Source: Erysipelothrix anatis (GTDB lineage Bacteria; Bacillota_I; Bacilli_A; Erysipelotrichales; Erysipelotrichaceae). Taken from it: DNA of 64,000 bases. The stretch lies in the NCBI RefSeq assembly GCF_009828745.1, contig NZ_WTSX01000002.1, positions 124,001 through 188,000 on the forward strand, read 5' to 3'. The notes under the pieces are model-generated. The model saw only the letters and a program-made list of their open reading frames with translations. It searched no databases and was not told where the DNA came from. The first letter of the stretch is position 1. The number at the start of each line of letters is the position of its first letter. The position numbers and the translations under genes are program-made. Below, piece by piece: positions 18,815 to 48,205 of the stretch.

Positions 18815-20188
18815 ATGACAACGATGAAATTCTATTTAGAGGATGTTTGGGGAAAAGTTAAATCTTATATTCAGAAAAACAGTCCTTTAGATGATATGAT
18901 TTTTAAAACATATATTGAATCTGATACTCGTCTTGGTGCACTCGATGATGCAACAGCAACGATTGTTGTTTCAACTTATTTACAAAAAGTCATACTACAT
19001 GATCAACTTGAATACTTGAATAAAGCCATTAATTCTGTTTTAGAACGAGAAAACATGGTCTGTGAAGTTCTTGAAGAAGGCGAGTTTACACAGAAGAAGC
19101 CAATTACTGCTACTCCTGTTCCAGAAGTAAAGCGTGTTGTTAAATCTGATGGAATTGCGGTTGACCAAACTTTTGAAAATTTCGTAGTTGGACCTAGTAA
19201 TAAGGAAAGTCATTCAGCAGCATTGGGATGTGCGTATCGACCTGGACAATTTTATACGCCTCTTTTTATCTATGGAAACTCTGGTTTAGGTAAAACCCAC
19301 TTATTAAATGCAATTGGTAATTATATTAAAGGAAAGAACCCTAATGCTAAGGTTTTTTATACATCAAGTTCTGATTTTGTTAGACAAGTTGCCAACTCTA
19401 TCCAAAATAGAGAAATTGAAGACTTCAAAGATCAAATGTACGATCTCGATGTTTTACTTATTGATGATATCCAGTTTTTAGCAGGTAAAGAAAAATCCCA
19501 CGAGATTTTCTTCCATATTTTCAATGAATTAATTTATAACCGTAAGCAAATTGTTATTACTAGTGATAGACTTCCAACCGAAATTAAAGGACTCGAAGAC
19601 CGCTTAATTAGCCGCTTTTCCTCAGGTTTATCTGTTGGCGTTGATTCGCCAGAGTTTGAAACTTCACTTGCAATTCTAAAAATGAAAATAATGAGTCGAA
19701 GTGTTGATCCAGGTATTTTTGATGAAGATGTCCTCGCTTATGTTGCTGCAAATTTCTCTAAAGATGTGAGAACTTTAGAAGGTGCACTTAACCGCTTATT
19801 GTTTTACTCTATTCAATTCTCTAACAATGACCATATAAATTTAGATATAGCTATGTCTGCATTTAAGGTAACAAATGGACAACCAATAAAAACAAATGAA
19901 TTGGATACAAAAACTATTAAACGTATTGTCGCTGACTACTATGGACTTACACAAGCTCAGCTTGTTTCTAAGGCACGGACGAAAGCAATTGCGAATGCCC
20001 GCCATATTGCAATTTATCTATCGAGAAAGCATCTCGATTTACCTTACAATAAAATTGGTGAAGAATTTGGAAAACGTGATCATTCAACCATAATAAGTGC
20101 GTGTGACAAAATTGAAAAGAAACTTAAAACAGATCAGCTTCTTGCACGAGCAATTTTTGAAATTGAATCTGAATTTAAAGCCAGCTAA
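18815..20188 (+). CDS. dnaA: chromosomal replication initiator DnaA
   Basis: A 457-residue DnaA. Domain I occupies about residues 1-85, followed by a linker. The AAA+ domain has Walker A GNSGLGKT (154-161) and Walker B LLIDDIQFLAGK. The C-terminal helix-turn-helix DNA-binding domain carries the signature KRDHSTIISACDKIE. It binds the boxes on either side of the gene and opens the origin. AAGGAG precedes the ATG at 18815. Confidence 0.98.
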   Translation: MTTMKFYLEDVWGKVKSYIQKNSPLDDMIFKTYIESDTRLGALDDATATIVVSTYLQKVILHDQLEYLNKAINSVLERENMVCEVLEEGEFTQKKPITATPVPEVKRVVKSDGIAVDQTFENFVVGPSNKESHSAALGCAYRPGQFYTPLFIYGNSGLGKTHLLNAIGNYIKGKNPNAKVFYTSSSDFVRQVANSIQNREIEDFKDQMYDLDVLLIDDIQFLAGKEKSHEIFFHIFNELIYNRKQIVITSDRLPTEIKGLEDRLISRFSSGLSVGVDSPEFETSLAILKMKIMSRSVDPGIFDEDVLAYVAANFSKDVRTLEGALNRLLFYSIQFSNNDHINLDIAMSAFKVTNGQPIKTNELDTKTIKRIVADYYGLTQAQLVSKARTKAIANARHIAIYLSRKHLDLPYNKIGEEFGKRDHSTIISACDKIEKKLKTDQLLARAIFEIESEFKAS

Positions 20189-21571: not shown

Positions 21572-22309
21572 ATGTTAAAGAATCAAAGACATCTCGCAAT
21601 TATTGAATACGTAAATGAACATCAATTTGCGAAAGTAGAAGAATTATCGCAACTTCTGAATGTTTCCGAAATTACGATTCGAAGAGATATTAATGAACTT
21701 CATGAAGAAAATGTCATTAAAAAAGTTCATGGAGGCGCGAGCTCTCTCAAACAGAATCACATTGCTATGGATATTGAGCTCGAATTGCGTCGAACTACTA
21801 ATGCTGATGAAAAACTAAAAATTGCTAAAATCGCTGCAGATTATATTCCCGACGATTCATCAATCTATTTAGATGCAGGAACATCAACATCACTTGTCAT
21901 TCCATATCTCGAGAACAAGAATGTAACGGTGTTTACTCATGGCTTACATCATATTGAAATGCTAAATAAATACAATATTGATACGTATATTATCGGTGGT
22001 CATCTAAAAACTAAGACACTTGCAACGGTTGGATCACTAAGTATCAAATATCTTGAACGTATGAATTTTGATATAGCACTTATAGGATTTAATGCTCTCG
22101 ATTCAGAGTTTGGTTATTCAACTCCTGATGAAATGGAAGCAATGATTAAGGCCACTATTATCAAGCATTCTAATGTAGTGTATTTCCTAGGGGATGAAAG
22201 TAAATTTGGGCGGAAGTCAGGAATGTCCTTTGCACAAATTAGTGATGGATACCTAGTTTCAAATAAACATCCAGGAGATAAATACCTAAATATAAAAGTA
22301 ATAAAGTAG
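21572..22309 (+). CDS. DeoR family regulator, probably of the fructose operon
   Basis: A 245-residue DeoR-family protein. An N-terminal helix-turn-helix (EELSQLLNVSEITIRRDINELHEENVIKKVHGGA) is followed by a DeoR sensor domain (DAGTSTSLVIPYL...IGFNALD). Such proteins sense phosphorylated sugars; fruR of Gram-positives regulates fruK-fruA, which follow here. No clear ribosome site precedes the ATG, which stands 2 bases after the dnaN stop, so translation is probably coupled to dnaN. A terminator after the gene separates it from fruK. Confidence 0.88.
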   Translation: MLKNQRHLAIIEYVNEHQFAKVEELSQLLNVSEITIRRDINELHEENVIKKVHGGASSLKQNHIAMDIELELRRTTNADEKLKIAKIAADYIPDDSSIYLDAGTSTSLVIPYLENKNVTVFTHGLHHIEMLNKYNIDTYIIGGHLKTKTLATVGSLSIKYLERMNFDIALIGFNALDSEFGYSTPDEMEAMIKATIIKHSNVVYFLGDESKFGRKSGMSFAQISDGYLVSNKHPGDKYLNIKVIK

Positions 22310-22328
22310 GCGTGTCCTACTTTTTTTA
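22303..22328 (+). terminator. terminator after the DeoR-type regulator
   Basis: AAAGTAGG-cgtgt-CCTACTTT followed by a T run; the stem covers the stop codon. Confidence 0.8.
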
Positions 22329-22350
22329 TTTTTAACAATGATTTGAATGA

Positions 22351-22369
22351 AAATGATAAGAAATGATAA
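22351..22369. repeat. direct repeat, possible regulator operator
   Basis: AAATGATAA occurs at 22351-22359 and again at 22361-22369, a 10-base period (one helical turn), just upstream of the fruK promoter. It is a candidate binding site for the DeoR-type regulator. Confidence 0.35.
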
Positions 22370-22376
22370 ATAGTGT

Positions 22377-22404
22377 TTGAAAACGATTACATTTATGATA
22401 AAAT
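22377..22404 (+). promoter_or_regulatory. fruK promoter with embedded cre site
   Basis: TTGAAA (22377-22382), 16-base spacer, TAAAAT (22399-22404). The 14-mer TGAAAACGATTACA (22378-22391) matches the CcpA cre consensus TGWAANCGNTNWCA at every position and overlaps the -35 box, as expected for catabolite repression. Confidence 0.75.
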
Positions 22405-22422
22405 ACAAATAGAGGTGATTTC

Positions 22423-23334
22423 ATGATACATATTATTGCACTAAATCCGTCAATTGATTATTTGATGTCTGCAAGTTCTGTGGAACTTGGCAAGACGAAT
22501 CGGTCAAACTTCGAGAAAATAAGAATAGGAGGTAAAGGAATTAATGTTGCAATCGTACTCAATAACTTAGGAATTGATACGACGCTTCATGGATTTTTAG
22601 GAGGTTTTACTGGCGAACATATTCGTGAAAATTTGAAAGAGTATCCACTCATAAAAGATAAATTTATCAATTCAAATGTATTAACGAGGATCAACGTGAA
22701 GATTAAAACCGATGTCGAGACTGAGTTGAACGGTTCTGGAGAAATCATCGATTCGAGATACATTGAACAACTTGAACGAGAAATCAAGACATTTACTGAA
22801 AACGATATTGTTGTTATGAGTGGTAGTATTTCCCGGGGAATGAATTACAGTTGGTACACAAAGATAGCACAATATTTACATTCGAAGAATATTGATTTTA
22901 TCGTTGATATAGGAAGTCATGAGCTTATAAATATTTTAAAATATCATCCCCTCTTAATTAAACCAAATATCGATGAATTCCTTCAAATTACCAATGTCCC
23001 GAATGATTACGAATCGATTCTTATTGCAGGTAAGGAAATGCTTAAATTAGGTGTTAAAAATATTATTATCTCTTGTGGTAAAGATGGATCTCTATATATT
23101 TCCAATCAAGACCTGTTTAAGGCTACGGTGCCAGAAGGAAAGCTTATTGATTCAGTTGGGGCTGGAGACTCCATGGTTGCTGGATTTATTGCAGGAATCG
23201 TAAAAGGAGAATCCGAAAAAGAAACATACTTATTAGCATCGGCTTCGGGAACGGCAACGGCATTTTCTGAAGCACTTGCAACATCAGATGAGATATCAAA
23301 TTTAATGAATAAAATCAAAATAGAGAGGATCTAA
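22423..23334 (+). CDS. fruK: 1-phosphofructokinase
   Basis: A 303-residue PfkB-family sugar kinase. Substrate-binding NPSIDYLM at the N-terminus, GGKGINVAIVLNNLG, and the catalytic signature SVGAGDSMVAGF near the C-terminus are present. It converts the fructose 1-phosphate delivered by the fructose PTS into fructose 1,6-bisphosphate. The gene is preceded by GAGGTG and followed after 2 bases by fruA, so the two are one operon. Tagatose-6-phosphate kinase is the main alternative, disfavoured by the neighbour. Confidence 0.92.
   Translation: MIHIIALNPSIDYLMSASSVELGKTNRSNFEKIRIGGKGINVAIVLNNLGIDTTLHGFLGGFTGEHIRENLKEYPLIKDKFINSNVLTRINVKIKTDVETELNGSGEIIDSRYIEQLEREIKTFTENDIVVMSGSISRGMNYSWYTKIAQYLHSKNIDFIVDIGSHELINILKYHPLLIKPNIDEFLQITNVPNDYESILIAGKEMLKLGVKNIIISCGKDGSLYISNQDLFKATVPEGKLIDSVGAGDSMVAGFIAGIVKGESEKETYLLASASGTATAFSEALATSDEISNLMNKIKIERI
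22828..22841. promoter_or_regulatory. Noc-site-like 14-mer inside fruK
   Basis: ATTTCCCGGGGAAT differs at one base from the nucleoid-occlusion (Noc) site ATTTCCCGGGAAAT known from Bacillus. It lies in coding sequence, so chance is possible. Confidence 0.25.
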
Positions 23335-23336
23335 TT

Positions 23337-25196
23337 ATGGAATTAAAAATTAGTGATGTGCTTAAAAGTAATAGTATTATTTTTGATTTGAAAGAAAATG
23401 ATAAGAAATCTGTGCTTTTAGAAATGTCTGAATATCTAAAGGCACAAGGATTTGTTAGTGATGCAAATCAATTCTTAGATGTACTTCTTGAAAGAGAAGC
23501 TGTAAGTACGACTGGTGTTGGAGATGGAATTGCAATCCCTCATGGTCGGAGCAATATAGTTACAGAAACAGTTGTTTTATTTGGAAGAAGTACTGGTGGA
23601 GTGAATTTCGAAAGCATGGATGACAAGCCCGTGCATTTATTCTTTATGATTGCTACTCCGGAAAATTCAGGGAATGAGCATCTTAAGATTCTCGCAGAAT
23701 TATCGGGTAAACTCATGCATTCCGATGTTGTGCTAGAACTAAAAAATGCCTCAACGTATTCAGAAATAATCGAAGCATTCTCAATAGAAGATACTACTAA
23801 TAATATCGAAACGAATGATTTACATAATCATAAAAAAGTTGTAGCAGTGACAGCATGTGCAACAGGAATCGCACACACATATATGGCAGCAGAGAAACTT
23901 CAAGAAATTGCAAAGAAGTTGAACATTGATGTAAAAGTTGAAACTAACGGAACTTCAGGTGTTGGCAATCAGTTGTCGAAGGCTGATATTGAGAATGCTG
24001 ATGCTGTGATTGTTGCTGCTGACATCAAGGTTGAAACATCACGATTTGATGGTAAAAAAATGATTGCAGTCCCAGTAGCTAAAGCAATTAAAGAACCACA
24101 AAAATTATTTGAAGAAGCACTTTCTGATAATACTCCTATTCATAGTGAGAAGGCTCAAGATTCACCACGAGATGAGAAAAAAGGAATCTATAAACATCTA
24201 ATGAGTGGTGTGTCTTATATGCTCCCATTTGTTATTGGTGGTGGAATTGTTATTGCACTTTCATTTTTGGTCGACCAGTTGATAGGTGTACCACAAGATA
24301 GCTTAGGTCAATTGGGTAGTTACAATGAATTAGCTGCATCTCTAAATAAAATTGGTGGTGCAGCATTTGGATTCATGCTTCCAGTATTAGCTGGTTACAT
24401 TGCCTACAGTATTGCAGATCGTCCGGGCCTTGTAGCAGGATTTGTTGCAGGTGGAATTGCTAGCACTGGTGGCGCAGGTTTCCTTGGCGCACTAATTGGT
24501 GGATTTGTGGCAGGGTATGTAGTCAATTTTGTGAAGAAAATGCTCAATGGACTGCCCCATTCACTGAATGGATTAAAAAATATCATGTTATATCCTCTCT
24601 TAGGTGTCCTCATTACTGGTGCAATAATGCTTATTGTTAATGTACCAATGAAAACGATTAATGATATGATGAACAACTTCCTGCTGAACTTGTCAGGCAC
24701 GAATGCTGTTATCCTAGGATTGCTCTTAGGGGCTATGATGGCAATTGACTTAGGGGGTCCAGTTAACAAAGCGGCCTATGTTTTTGGTACAGGAACGCTT
24801 GCTACAGCATCTGTGGGAGGAAGTAGTGTCATGGCAGCCGTTATGGCGGCTGGTATGGTACCGCCGCTTGCAGTATTTGTTGCCACACTATTTTTCAAAG
24901 ATAAATTTACAGTTGAAGAGAAACAAGCCGGACTTACTAATGCTGTCTTAGGGGCATCTTTCATTACTGAAGGAGCAATTCCTTTTGCATCAAAAGATCC
25001 ATTACGAATCATTCCAAGTTTTGTAGTTGGGTCCGCAGTTACCGGTGCACTTGTACTTGCATCAAATATTATGGTAAGTGCGCCTCACGGTGGTATCTTC
25101 GTAATATTCCTTGTTTCGCAACCAGTTCTATACATTGCTTATATTGCAATTGGATCAATAATTAGCGGATTCATTATGGGTATTTTATCCAAATAA
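23337..25196 (+). CDS. fruA: PTS fructose transporter, fused EIIABC
   Basis: A 619-residue fused permease. EIIA covers residues 1-150 with the phosphorylated His69 in GIAIPHGRS. EIIB covers about 165-265 with Cys174 in VTACATGIAHTY. EIIC (about 285-619) is a multi-span membrane domain. It imports fructose as fructose 1-phosphate using PEP through EI and HPr. All active residues are present. It follows fruK by 2 bases and ends at a strong terminator. Confidence 0.95.
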   Translation: MELKISDVLKSNSIIFDLKENDKKSVLLEMSEYLKAQGFVSDANQFLDVLLEREAVSTTGVGDGIAIPHGRSNIVTETVVLFGRSTGGVNFESMDDKPVHLFFMIATPENSGNEHLKILAELSGKLMHSDVVLELKNASTYSEIIEAFSIEDTTNNIETNDLHNHKKVVAVTACATGIAHTYMAAEKLQEIAKKLNIDVKVETNGTSGVGNQLSKADIENADAVIVAADIKVETSRFDGKKMIAVPVAKAIKEPQKLFEEALSDNTPIHSEKAQDSPRDEKKGIYKHLMSGVSYMLPFVIGGGIVIALSFLVDQLIGVPQDSLGQLGSYNELAASLNKIGGAAFGFMLPVLAGYIAYSIADRPGLVAGFVAGGIASTGGAGFLGALIGGFVAGYVVNFVKKMLNGLPHSLNGLKNIMLYPLLGVLITGAIMLIVNVPMKTINDMMNNFLLNLSGTNAVILGLLLGAMMAIDLGGPVNKAAYVFGTGTLATASVGGSSVMAAVMAAGMVPPLAVFVATLFFKDKFTVEEKQAGLTNAVLGASFITEGAIPFASKDPLRIIPSFVVGSAVTGALVLASNIMVSAPHGGIFVIFLVSQPVLYIAYIAIGSIISGFIMGILSK

Positions 25197-28604: not shown

Positions 28605-31115
28605 ATGGAAGAGAATAAAGAATTTGATCGCGTAAAATCGCGTAGTATTTCTGATGAAATGAAGAAATCTTTCGTTTCATATGCAATGTCCGTTATTGTC
28701 TCACGTGCCCTTCCAGATGTACGTGATGGATTGAAACCTGTTCACCGTCGTATTCTATACGCGATGAGTGATTTGGGTATGACGAGTGATAAACCGTATA
28801 AGAAATCAGCACGTATCGTTGGGGACGTAATTGGTAAGTATCACCCTCACGGTGATATTGCTGTTTATGAATCAATGGTTCGTATGTCACAAGACTTTTC
28901 TTATCGTTACATGCTAGTTGATGGCCATGGTAACTTTGGGTCCATTGATGGCGATGGCGCTGCTGCGATGCGTTATACAGAAGCTCGTATGTCCAAAATT
29001 TCGATGGAAATGATGCGCGATATTAATAAAGAAACTGTTGATTTTCAACCTAACTATGACGGAGAAGAGACAGAACCTTCGGTTCTACCTTCACGTTTTC
29101 CGAATGTTTTAGTTAATGGTGGAACGGGGATTGCTGTCGGGATGGCGACGAATATCCCTCCTCATAACTTAGGAGAAGTCGTTGATGCTACAATTGCATT
29201 AATTGATAATCCAGAAATCACAATTAAAGAATTGATGGATGAGTATATTTTTGGTCCAGATTTCCCAACAGGAGCTTATTTACTTGGACGCTCAGGTATT
29301 AAGTCAGCATTTGAAACTGGTCGCGGATCTGTAGTTATGCGTGCTAAAGTTGATATCACTGAGTTACCTAATGGGAAGCCGGTTCTTACAATTTCTGAAA
29401 TACCTTATCAAGTAAATAAAGCGAATCTTGTTGAGAAAATCGCTAGTCTTGTTCGGGATAAAGAAATTGAAGGGATTACTGACTTAAGAGATGAGTCAAA
29501 CCGAGTCGGTATCAAAATAGTTATTGAATTACGTCGCGAAATACAACCAGAAGTTGTATTAAACCAACTATATCGTTTAACAGCAATGCAATCGACATTT
29601 GGTGTAAATATGTTAGCGTTGGTTGATAATAGACCAAAATTGCTTAACCTTCTTGAAATACTAGGATATTATCGAGATCACCAAATTGAGATTATCACAC
29701 GAAGAACACGATTCGAACTGCGAAAAGCTGAAGAACGTGCTCATATTCTCGAAGGAATGATCATTGCGCTCGATAATATCGATGAAGTAATGACAATTAT
29801 TAGAAATTCAAATGATGATGCTGAGGCAAGTAGTCGTCTCAATGAGAGATTTGGTCTTACAGCAATCCAATCTAAAGCTATCTTAGATATGCAGTTCAGA
29901 CGTTTGACTGGATTGCAACGTGAAAAACTCGATGCAGAATACGCAGAGTTAACACTGACAATAGAAGATTTAAAAGATATTCTTGCAAATCACAGTCGTG
30001 TTTTAGATATCATTAAGACAGATTTAGAAGAAATTAAGACTAAATTTGGTGATCCAAGACGCTCTGAGGTTATAGAAGCAGATATCGATATGCTTGATGA
30101 AGATTTGATACCTGAAGAAGATATCGTAATTTCGATGACCATGAATGGTTATATTAAGCGTACAACTATAGACTCCTTTAATGTTCAAAATAGAGGTGGT
30201 AAGGGTGTTAAAGGTATGGCGACATACGATGAAGATGAAATTGATCAATTCCTAGCTCTTTCAACTCATGATTACTTACTAGTCTTTACTAATAAAGGTA
30301 AAGTGTATAGAATGCGCGGATTTAATGTTCCAGCAGCAAGTAGAACTGCTAAAGGAATTCCAGTCGTCAACTTACTCTCTCTGGATGAAGGTGAAGAAGT
30401 ACGTACACTGGTGAAAGTACCTAGAGATGATGAAGACTCTAAATATGCATTCTTCGTAACTCGACAAGGTATCGTCAAACGTGTTGCAGTGAGTGAGTTT
30501 GAGTCAATTCGACAAAATGGTAAAATTGCAATTACGCTACGCGAAGACGATGAACTCGTGGCTGTCAAAATGACTGATGGTTCAAATGAAATTATCATTG
30601 GTGGAGACAACGGTAAAGCAGTTCGCTTTGACGAAAATGAAGTTAGACCAATGGGACGTACCGCATCTGGTGTTCGAGGATTCGATGTTGATGGTGGAAT
30701 CGTTGTAGGGGTTGCAACTGACCGTGAAGGTAAGTATATTTTAGCCATTACTGAAAAAGGTTATGGTAAACGTACTGAATTAGATGAGTATCGATTAACA
30801 AAACGTGGTGCTAAAGGTGTTAAAACAGTTAATATTACTGAGAAGAACGGTAATCTCGTATCACTTCGAGCTGTGGCAGGTGATGAAGAGCTTCTTGTTA
30901 TTTCAAGTGATGGAACTGTAATCCGAACAGAAGTTGCAAATATAGGAATATATGGTCGCTCAACGATTGGTGTTCGAATTATCAATGTTGGAGAAAATGA
31001 CGCTGTTGCTTCAGTCGCTGTGTTGAAAGTTAGTGAAGAAATTTCTGACTCTGATATCGATGATAAGTCACACGATGATACAGTAGTTGAAACAGAAACT
31101 GTAGATTCAGAATAA
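28605..31115 (+). CDS. gyrA: DNA gyrase subunit A
   Basis: An 836-residue gyrase A. The catalytic Tyr124 lies in MRYTEARMS, and the breakage-reunion domain is followed by the beta-pinwheel C-terminal domain with the gyrase-box motif [10 protein letters not shown], which separates it from ParC. In the quinolone-resistance region the sequence is [11 protein letters not shown]: Ile85 stands where E. coli has Ser83, a substitution linked to fluoroquinolone resistance. An acidic tail ends the protein. It starts 10 bases after gyrB with a strong GGGAGGG site. Confidence 0.97.
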
Positions 31116-31179: not shown

Positions 31180-31208
31180 TTGACAATAAATACAGTAATG
31201 GCTATAAT
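31180..31208 (+). promoter_or_regulatory. serS promoter
   Basis: Perfect TTGACA (31180-31185), 17-base spacer, perfect TATAAT (31203-31208), ahead of the T-box leader. Confidence 0.85.
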
Positions 31209-31214
31209 TATCTT

Positions 31215-31425
31215 AAACTCAGTGAGAGGGAATAATATAGTCGTAAGTTATTTAAAGAGAGATACTGTTGGTGAGAGGTATTATTAATTGATTATAGATC
31301 TACCCTTGAGAGATTAAATTCGGAAGACAGCCGTTATCTGTTAAAGGAATGTTTCACGTGAAACATTCGAAAAAGGGTGGCACCACGGTAAATCCGTCCC
31401 TTAATGAGGGTGTTTTTTTTATTTT
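31215..31425 (+). promoter_or_regulatory. serine T-box leader of serS
   Basis: The conserved T-box sequence AGGGTGGCACCACGG (31374-31388) is followed by a G+C-rich hairpin (CCCTTAATGAGGG) and a T run acting as terminator, just before serS. The base of stem I pairs CTCA/AGGG near 31220-31232 with CCCTTGAG near 31303-31310. Directly before the CCC lies UCU (31299-31301), a Ser codon in the specifier position. Uncharged tRNA-Ser should favour the antiterminator and raise serS expression. A perfect parS site lies between stem I and the T-box sequence. Confidence 0.88.
31350..31365. promoter_or_regulatory. parS centromere site (perfect consensus)
   Basis: TGTTTCACGTGAAACA, the exact 16-base ParB (Spo0J) binding site, about 11 kb from the origin. 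It lies inside the transcribed serS leader and as RNA could fold into a stem GUUUC-acgu-GAAAC. Confidence 0.92.
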
Positions 31426-31438
31426 AGGAGAGATAGTT

Positions 31439-32728
31439 ATGTTAGATATTAATCTATTTAGAACTGATGCGGATATTATTCGCGAGAATATCAAGAAAAA
31501 ATTCCAAGATCACAAACTACCAATGGTCGATGAAATCATTGCATTGGACATTGAATATCGTGGTTTAAAGACACGTGCAGATGAATTACGTGGACAAAGA
31601 AACTCATTAAGTAAGGAAATTGGTAAACTAATGGGTCAAAAGAAAATCGATGAAGCAAACGCCATTAAAGAGCAGGTTCAAGCATTTGCTAAAGAACTTG
31701 AAGAAATTGAGCAGAATGAAGAACCAGTATTTGAGAAATTACAACAACTCTTAATGCAAATACCGAACTTAATTGCTGATGATGTTCCTTTAGGAAGAGA
31801 TGACACCGAAAATGTCGAGCGTTCACGTCATGGTGAAATGGTAGAAAAACCGTTTGAAGTCCCTTATCACGTAGATATTATGGAGTCATTCGATGGAATC
31901 GACTTAGATGCAGCGCGAAAAGTTAGTGGACAAGGCTTCTACTACTTACAAAAGGATGTTGCGCGTCTTCATTCAGCTGTCACTGCATACGCAAGAGACT
32001 TCATGATTGATCGTGGCTATGACTATGTCATTCCACCATATATGATCCGTAGTCATGTTGTAACTGGTGTAATGAGCTTCGAAGAAATGGAAAATATGAT
32101 GTATAAGGTTGAAGGTGAGGATCTGTACTTAATTGGTACCAGTGAACACTCAATGATTGGTAAGTTTATTGATACAATCAACCCTGAATCAAAGATGCCA
32201 CAACGCCTCACTAGCTACTCACCTTGCTTCCGTAAAGAAGTAGGTGCACATGGAATAGAAGAGCGCGGAGTATATAGAATACACCAGTTTGAGAAGCAAG
32301 AAATGGTTATTGTATGTAAACCGGAAGAAAGTGCTGCATTATTTGAAGAAATGTACAAAAATTCAGTTGATTACTTCCGAAGTCTAGATATTCCAGTCAG
32401 AGTTTTAGAGTGTTGCTCAGGAGATTTAGCTGATCTGAAACACAAATCTGTTGATGTTGAAGCATGGAGTCCTCGTCAAAAGAAATTCTTTGAAGTAGGA
32501 AGTTGCTCAAACCTTACTGATGCTCAAGCAAGAAGACTAAAAATAAGAATTGATACAAAAGATGGACGCGTATTTGCACATACCTTAAACAATACTGTTG
32601 TTGCACCTCCGCGTATGCTTATCGCATTTTTAGAGAATAACCTTCAAGAAGACGGTTCGGTACTAATTCCTGAAGCGTTAAGACCTTATATGGGATTTAA
32701 AGAGAAAATGGTTCCTGTATCTAAATAA
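31439..32728 (+). CDS. serS: seryl-tRNA synthetase
   Basis: A 429-residue class II synthetase that charges tRNA-Ser. An N-terminal antiparallel coiled-coil arm (about residues 30-100) is followed by the catalytic domain with motif 2 (TSYSPCFRKEVGAHG...IHQFEK) and motif 3 (NTVVAPPRMLIAFLEN). The ATG at 31439 follows TTAGGAGAG. An in-frame ATG at 31349 lies within the T-box leader and is not the start. Confidence 0.97.
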   Translation: MLDINLFRTDADIIRENIKKKFQDHKLPMVDEIIALDIEYRGLKTRADELRGQRNSLSKEIGKLMGQKKIDEANAIKEQVQAFAKELEEIEQNEEPVFEKLQQLLMQIPNLIADDVPLGRDDTENVERSRHGEMVEKPFEVPYHVDIMESFDGIDLDAARKVSGQGFYYLQKDVARLHSAVTAYARDFMIDRGYDYVIPPYMIRSHVVTGVMSFEEMENMMYKVEGEDLYLIGTSEHSMIGKFIDTINPESKMPQRLTSYSPCFRKEVGAHGIEERGVYRIHQFEKQEMVIVCKPEESAALFEEMYKNSVDYFRSLDIPVRVLECCSGDLADLKHKSVDVEAWSPRQKKFFEVGSCSNLTDAQARRLKIRIDTKDGRVFAHTLNNTVVAPPRMLIAFLENNLQEDGSVLIPEALRPYMGFKEKMVPVSK

Positions 32729-33604: not shown

Positions 33605-33620
33605 TGTTTCACGTGAAACG
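33605..33620. promoter_or_regulatory. parS-like site upstream of the SRP RNA gene
   Basis: TGTTTCACGTGAAACG, one base off the parS consensus (last base). It ends at the base directly before the -35 box of the SRP RNA promoter. Confidence 0.85.
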
Positions 33621-33648
33621 TTGCATTTATTTGCATATTTGTTATAAT
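33621..33648 (+). promoter_or_regulatory. promoter of SRP RNA gene
   Basis: TTGCAT (33621-33626), 16-base spacer, TATAAT (33643-33648). Confidence 0.7.
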
Positions 33649-33653
33649 AACTA

Positions 33654-33740
33654 TGCTACTACAACATAATCTAATGAACCAGGTCAGGGTAGGAATACAG
33701 CAGCCTTAATTTAGCTCTTATGTGTGTAGTGGCTTTTTTT
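33654..33740 (+). ncRNA. ffs: signal recognition particle RNA (small 4.5S type)
   Basis: The conserved SRP core is visible: ACCAGGTCAGG on the 5' side, then GGAATACAGCAGCC on the 3' side, which form the internal loops that bind Ffh. Outer arms pair GCTACTAC (from 33655) with GTAGTGGC (to 33733), followed by a T run acting as terminator. This is the short form of about 85 bases without an Alu domain. In Bacillus the gene lies between tadA and dnaX; here it is upstream of tadA. Confidence 0.88.
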
Positions 33741-33764: not shown

Positions 33765-34652
33765 ATGAATCACGAAATGTATATGAGAGAAGCTATAAAA
33801 CAAGCTAAAATGGCATATGAGATGGATGAAGTACCTGTCGGTGCTATTGTAGTAAAAGACGGGAAAATTATAGGTAAAGGATTCAATCTAAGAGAGAGTA
33901 CCAATAGAACAAGCGCACATGCAGAAATTGAAGCCATGAATGCCGCGGGGAAATCACTTAATAGTTGGAACTTAAGTGGTTGTACTGTTTATGTAACTGT
34001 CGAACCTTGTCAAATGTGCGCAGGAGCAATGATTCAAGCTCATGTAGATACTGTAGTATTTGGTGCTAATGAACCAAATAGTGGTAGCTATGGATCAGTA
34101 TTGAATATGTCTGAAATACAGGGATTTAATCATTACCCGAAGGTAATCCCAAACATACTCGAATCTGAAGGGAGATTACTTATGAAAGAATTTTTTAAAG
34201 AAAAACGAAATAATGAAGTAAAAATCAAACGTGTTGATGATGAATCTTATAATCTATACTTAGATGTCAGGAAGAAAGTGTTTGTTGAAGAACAAAATGT
34301 TGATATAAGCCTTGAAATAGATGAATACGATTCACCTAATGATGAGAACGTAATGCATGTAATGGCGGTTGTTAATAATCAAGTTGTTGGAGCTGCTCGA
34401 TACGTGAAAAAGGGAGATACCCTCAAGGTTGGAAGAGTTGCAGTGCTCAAAGAGTACCGGAAATTCAAAATAGGGACAAAGTTGCTCCAAGATGCAGAGA
34501 AACAAGCGAAAAATAATGGGTTTAAGCGACTAGAATTGGGTGCGCAGATTCAAGCAATACCATTCTATGAAAAAAATGGCTATAAAGAATATGGTGAAGT
34601 CTTTGATGACGCAGGGATTGATCATATAATGATGGAAAAGGAAATCAAATAA
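33765..34652 (+). CDS. tadA: tRNA adenosine deaminase fused to GNAT acetyltransferase
   Basis: A 295-residue two-domain protein. Residues 1-150 are a complete TadA: zinc ligands His52 and Cys82/Cys85 with catalytic Glu54 (AHAEIEA, EPCQMCAGAM), which converts A34 to inosine in tRNA-Arg. Residues from about 155 are a GNAT N-acetyltransferase of the YjcF/ElaA type (VRKKVFVEEQNVD, then VGRVAVLKEYRKFKIGTKLL and FYEKNGYKEYGEVFDDAG). The joint KEFFKEKRNNEVKIKRVD is uninterrupted. TadA is normally about 150-170 residues, so this is a fusion. GAGGTGAT precedes the ATG. Confidence 0.92.
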   Translation: MNHEMYMREAIKQAKMAYEMDEVPVGAIVVKDGKIIGKGFNLRESTNRTSAHAEIEAMNAAGKSLNSWNLSGCTVYVTVEPCQMCAGAMIQAHVDTVVFGANEPNSGSYGSVLNMSEIQGFNHYPKVIPNILESEGRLLMKEFFKEKRNNEVKIKRVDDESYNLYLDVRKKVFVEEQNVDISLEIDEYDSPNDENVMHVMAVVNNQVVGAARYVKKGDTLKVGRVAVLKEYRKFKIGTKLLQDAEKQAKNNGFKRLELGAQIQAIPFYEKNGYKEYGEVFDDAGIDHIMMEKEIK

Positions 34653-48183: not shown

Positions 48184-48196
48184 GTCTTTTAATTTC
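48167..48196 (+). terminator. miaA terminator
   Basis: GACCTACG-gaat-CGTAGGTC followed by TTTTAATTT; overlaps the miaA stop codon. Confidence 0.8.
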
Positions 48197-48205
48197 CCAG
48201 GAAAT
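48192..48205. promoter_or_regulatory. Noc-site-like 14-mer in intergenic DNA
   Basis: ATTTCCCAGGAAAT differs at one base from the Bacillus Noc site ATTTCCCGGGAAAT and is placed in non-coding DNA directly after the miaA terminator. Confidence 0.3.

Follow-up and report, generated by a model that had tools for sequence, protein, structure and literature searches.

In T-box leader RNAs, stem III forms part of the 'discriminator' and is indispensable for aminoacylation sensing, the helix being enclosed in a 5'-RRRxG - stem III - AA motif and its stem and loop being variable in sequence (PMC7583486). For the ParB family, the residues that distinguish specificity for parS from specificity for the Noc-binding site have been named (PMC7383237). 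In the DNA analyzed here, a 64,000-nucleotide stretch of the Erysipelothrix anatis genome that we call the window, a T-box leader and a parS sequence occupy the same letters. To our knowledge, no described chromosomal parS lies within a structured regulatory RNA as a functional helix.

The palindrome in the serS leader

A perfect parS, TGTTTCACGTGAAACA, is present at 31350-31365, matching the 16-bp consensus palindrome TGTTNCACGTGAAACA with 0 mismatches, as found from motif matches in the window, the genome and the genus. It lies ∼140 bp downstream of the promoter of serS (31180-31208, forward strand, as are all oriented features given below), in which TTGACA and TATAAT, separated by a 17-nt spacer, agree with the sigma-A consensus at 12 of 12 positions. 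Between this promoter and the seryl-tRNA synthetase gene itself (serS, 31439-32728; TIGR00414, E 8e-122), the T-box covariance model RF00230 is matched over its full length, model positions 1-219, by a leader RNA at 31213-31404 (97.4 bits against a gathering score of 93, E 3.6e-20). The sequence-only reading had placed a perfect parS inside this leader, between stem I and the antiterminator, and both points hold; the location can now be given more precisely, as the Rfam alignment puts the palindrome at exactly the stem III position of the model.

We examined how the individual elements of the leader are arranged around the site. The probable specifier codon, read from the sequence, is UCU (serine) at 31299-31301, and the same column in relatives holds UCU, UCC or UCA (UCN), which fits the serine gene downstream. 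Stem III is preceded by the purine string AAAGG (31343-31347), a reading of the 5'-RRRxG motif whose last G (31347) doubles as the first base of the predicted stem, and it is followed by GAA, such that both flanks of the motif are present. The hairpin itself, supported by fold and Rfam alignment, spans 31347-31368 with 9 bp and an ACGU loop, contains the whole of parS and has a predicted stability of -10.4 kcal/mol, which none of 200 shuffled sequences equaled. The earlier proposal that the same bases make up a DNA site and an RNA stem is supported. Downstream, an antiterminator (31374-31402, from the Rfam alignment and the fold) bearing the T-box sequence GGGTGGCACC at 31375-31384 competes with the leader terminator, a hairpin at 31395-31412 followed by a T tract (31395-31420 in all). 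Because parS lies upstream of this terminator, it is transcribed whether or not the tRNA is charged. The minimum-free-energy fold of the full leader gave no canonical T-box outside stem III.

The origin region and its ParB proteins

The presence of dnaA, dnaN, recF, gyrB, gyrA, serS, the SRP RNA gene and dnaX identifies the window as the origin region of the chromosome. The gene dnaA (18815-20188; TIGR00362), which marks the replication origin region, is ∼12 kb from the leader parS, and gyrA (28605-31115; profile match and synteny) is the neighbor upstream of serS. A second parS, TGTTTCACGTGAAACG, with 1 mismatch, is found 2.2 kb downstream of the first at 33605-33620, where it abuts the probable -35 element (TTGCAT) of the SRP RNA gene (33652-33739; RF00169, 63.7 bits), giving the clustering close to the origin that is typical of such sites. 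With up to 3 mismatches allowed, 4 parS matches are observed in the window compared with 0.63 expected, a number reached in 0 of 100 shuffles. In the 2.19-Mb genome the leader site and the one at 33605-33620 are the only two with 0 or 1 mismatch; three further sites with 2 mismatches lie elsewhere, compared with ∼0.6 expected from our own arithmetic assuming uniform letters, and a reversed control pattern searched genome-wide over the same 2.19 Mb gave 0 matches.

Two ParB-family genes flank a parA gene ∼36 kb upstream, and both soj-spo0J and noc are present. With the specificity positions counted by hand on the HTH segment and residues as in PMC7383237, the first paralogue carries the equivalents of R173, N178 and G201, which are of the parS type, and the second carries Q173, K179 and R201, which are of the Noc type. 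The genome therefore encodes a ParB with predicted parS-type specificity. Near matches to the Noc-binding site ATTTCCCGGGAAAT are present at 22828-22841 and 48192-48205, with none expected by chance, which fits the Noc paralogue.

Several other features of this region were noted. The second parS, considered with its surroundings at 33605-33626, abuts the SRP RNA -35 element, so that ParB could affect transcription of the SRP RNA. Gene order in the origin region is conserved, but here dnaN and recF are, unusually, separated by a fructose operon (21572-25196) encoding a DeoR-type regulator, a 1-phosphofructokinase and a PTS fructose transporter. At 33765-34652, a single reading frame of 295 amino acids apparently joins TadA (tRNA adenosine deaminase) to a GNAT acetyltransferase domain.

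Conservation and constraint on the stem

Absence of the palindrome from the serS leaders of close relatives had been named in the sequence-only reading as the observation that would count against it, and no such absence was seen. Each of the 13 Erysipelothrix genomes read has parS or a variant of it as stem III of its serS T-box, 8 having the perfect site, 4 having TGTTCCACGTGGAACA and 1 having TGTTTCATGTGAAACA. The change in TGTTCCACGTGGAACA is matched on both arms, preserving the palindrome and the RNA pairing, and this is the form of parS found in Pseudomonas putida and Pseudomonas aeruginosa (PMC7022226). The parS sites of the genus outside the leader (≤1 mismatch) lie ∼2.1-2.3 kb downstream, adjoining the SRP RNA gene, the exceptions being extra copies on the same contigs in genomes G189 and G179. 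In the latter (L148, 1-4275), TGTTTCATGTGAAACA occurs three times, once in the leader and the other two near the SRP RNA gene; ParB has perhaps co-evolved with this repeated off-consensus parS.

Across the genus and family we compared 73 serS loci, chosen by the SerS protein and not by parS, counting the T-box sequence of their leaders as GGTGGNACC or the variant GGTGGCAAC. Stem III is parS in 33 of these loci and unrelated to it in 32, the other 8 being without a T-box. The likeness is bimodal, with stem III either within 2 mismatches of parS or unrelated, and no intermediate was found among the 65 T-box serS loci. In many relatives the T-box of serS is retained but lacks parS, which is instead found at another position close by; as a separate observation, parS starts right behind the serS stop codon in many other Erysipelotrichaceae genera. 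Mapping the presence of parS in the leader on the SerS tree requires 8 changes, and well-supported branches force at least 3 of these.

Elsewhere in the class, parS ahead of a T-box sequence was detected in six further families; a phylum-level sample drew only genomes of this class. The downstream protein, where scanned, is TIGR00414 in five of the six, the scanned leaders match RF00230, and gyrA is upstream of serS within ∼3 kb in five of the six. The SerS proteins of these families are only ∼33% identical to that of Erysipelothrix. The class contains two SerS types at this level of identity, both with a T-box parS and, in several families, with the same location close to gyrA (L164-L172, L232 and L246-L249). 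Either the leader was retained while the gene behind it was exchanged, or there were two separate entries of parS. Matches in high-GC actinobacteria and proteobacteria, among those listed, mostly look like chance occurrences of GGTGGNACC; at L005, which was checked, no synthetase gene is preceded by a leader resembling a T-box.

Two layers of constraint can be separated in these alignments. In a clade with parS, identity between genomes is 93% over the inner 12 letters of the stem and 57% over the rest of the leader, whereas in a clade without parS the corresponding values are 26% and 68%, these values, like the counts of 33, 32 and 8, resting on samples chosen by SerS. As the stem persists where parS has been lost, what the RNA requires is pairing at this position and not this particular sequence. 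The alignments suggest that the letters are held by something other than the RNA, for which ParB is the natural candidate. The outer part of the stem behaves differently. Around T-box parS sites the outer letters vary yet stay complementary, with outer pairs 3, 4 and 5 paired in 96, 88 and 61% of cases compared with 69, 48 and 39% at 117 parS sites outside T-boxes; the T-box set used here was gathered by the parS pattern, such that the identity of its core is partly by construction. Stems are longer at the T-box sites than at the others (p 3e-9, a value that ignores the relatedness of the sequences). Because complementary extension is commoner than at parS sites outside T-boxes, selection seems to act on the RNA stem as well. 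Around parS, the trailing purines and the RRRxG motif are likewise kept, the motif exactly or nearly so, with some relatives one letter off. Frozen inner letters combined with covarying outer pairs appear to be the signature of a dual constraint on DNA and RNA.

Competing explanations and relation to known systems

Taking together the position of the palindrome, its RNA fold and conservation, the frozen core, the covarying outer stem and the parS-type ParB, we consider it very probable that the same stretch is both a parS DNA site and stem III of the serS T-box. The putative DNA role of the leader palindrome rests on homology, and we infer both occupancy by ParB in vivo and normal tRNA control through stem III. 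As double-stranded DNA the stretch would be one of two main chromosomal parS sites, loading ParB close to oriC, and as RNA it would form the stem III helix, which must exist but whose letters are free. Since a palindrome always gives a hairpin, stem III would be a slot able to host parS without harm to the riboswitch, with the conserved letters of the RNA itself staying in the antiterminator and in the purines on either side of the stem (RRRxG ... AA). The serS gene neighbors gyrA close to oriC, in the part of the chromosome expected to carry parS sites, and on the simplest account parS settled in this slot and is now maintained by ParB at the DNA level and by the T-box at the RNA level. Most likely the shared use is a matter of evolutionary convenience, the leader offering a palindrome-tolerant position near the origin, and not a regulatory circuit.

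That the palindrome is simply a conserved stem III whose likeness to parS is incidental seems scarcely credible to us. It does fold well and exactly at the stem III position, but stem III is unrelated to parS in 32 serS T-boxes from this family, these genomes carry further copies of the 16-mer beyond the leader, and the genome, which encodes a parS-type ParB, has no other perfect parS. The converse reading, of a parS site in a leader whose stem III is dispensable, so that pairing in the RNA simply follows from the site being palindromic, draws on the fact that any parS forms an RNA hairpin. We regard it as improbable given that the stem extends past parS through changing complementary letters more than at other parS sites, that the purine flanks are kept, and that stem III is reported to be indispensable (PMC7583486).

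Regulatory coupling of the two functions, which the sequence-only reading had suggested could arise from ParB spreading over serS, is unlikely. Under this reading, ParB at parS, or sliding clamps or loaded SMC, would slow transcription through the serS leader, and the state of segregation and serine starvation would act on one another throughout a whole clade. Such coupling is conceivable because ParB represses the promoters next to parS3 and parS4 in P. aeruginosa (PMC5521831), and it would suit both the distance of ∼140 bp from promoter to parS and the recurrence of the overlap only with serS T-boxes among the loci read. However, lineages that have a leader parS and lineages that lack it both place serS close to gyrA and oriC, and hence location alone can explain the association with serS. 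In Streptococcus pneumoniae, moreover, the genes that change when ParB is lost do not lie close to the parS sites of that species (PMC7022226). As parS precedes the terminator and is transcribed whatever the tRNA charge, and as relatives have repeatedly gained or lost it while the T-box mostly stayed, coupling is not favored, and no observation demands it. Were it true, ParB loading and tRNA-Ser sensing by the same bases would change each other.

The locus offers a natural case of a centromere site and a riboswitch helix on one stretch, in which clades with and without the overlap make it possible to test directly how much imposed sequence stem III of a T-box can tolerate. The influence of ParB loading on RNA polymerase at a transcribed site, and the reverse influence, can also be tested here, and work on parS or ParB in such bacteria may disturb an essential gene. 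A search of the literature on parS with T-box, serS, riboswitch or Erysipelotrichaceae, with most subscription journals outside its reach, did not find the overlap.

Compared with known systems, the leader is like any transcriptional serS T-box (RF00230) in having stem I, a UCN specifier, a purine-flanked stem III, an antiterminator, a terminator and the synthetase gene downstream, but unlike the usual T-box its normally variable stem III letters are fixed as a putative DNA-binding site. Likewise, the 16-bp palindrome, its origin-proximal position, a ParB with R173 and G201 equivalents and the presence of soj-spo0J and noc are as in chromosomal parS systems with ParB/Spo0J, whereas location inside a structured regulatory RNA, transcribed as a predicted functional helix, sets this site apart from other chromosomal parS sites. 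The parS3 and parS4 sites of P. aeruginosa are similar in being origin-proximal and next to promoters, which there are affected directly (PMC5521831), but neither is described as part of an RNA switch. Both parS and the T-box are of known kinds, and it is their overlap for which no earlier description was found in the literature covered.
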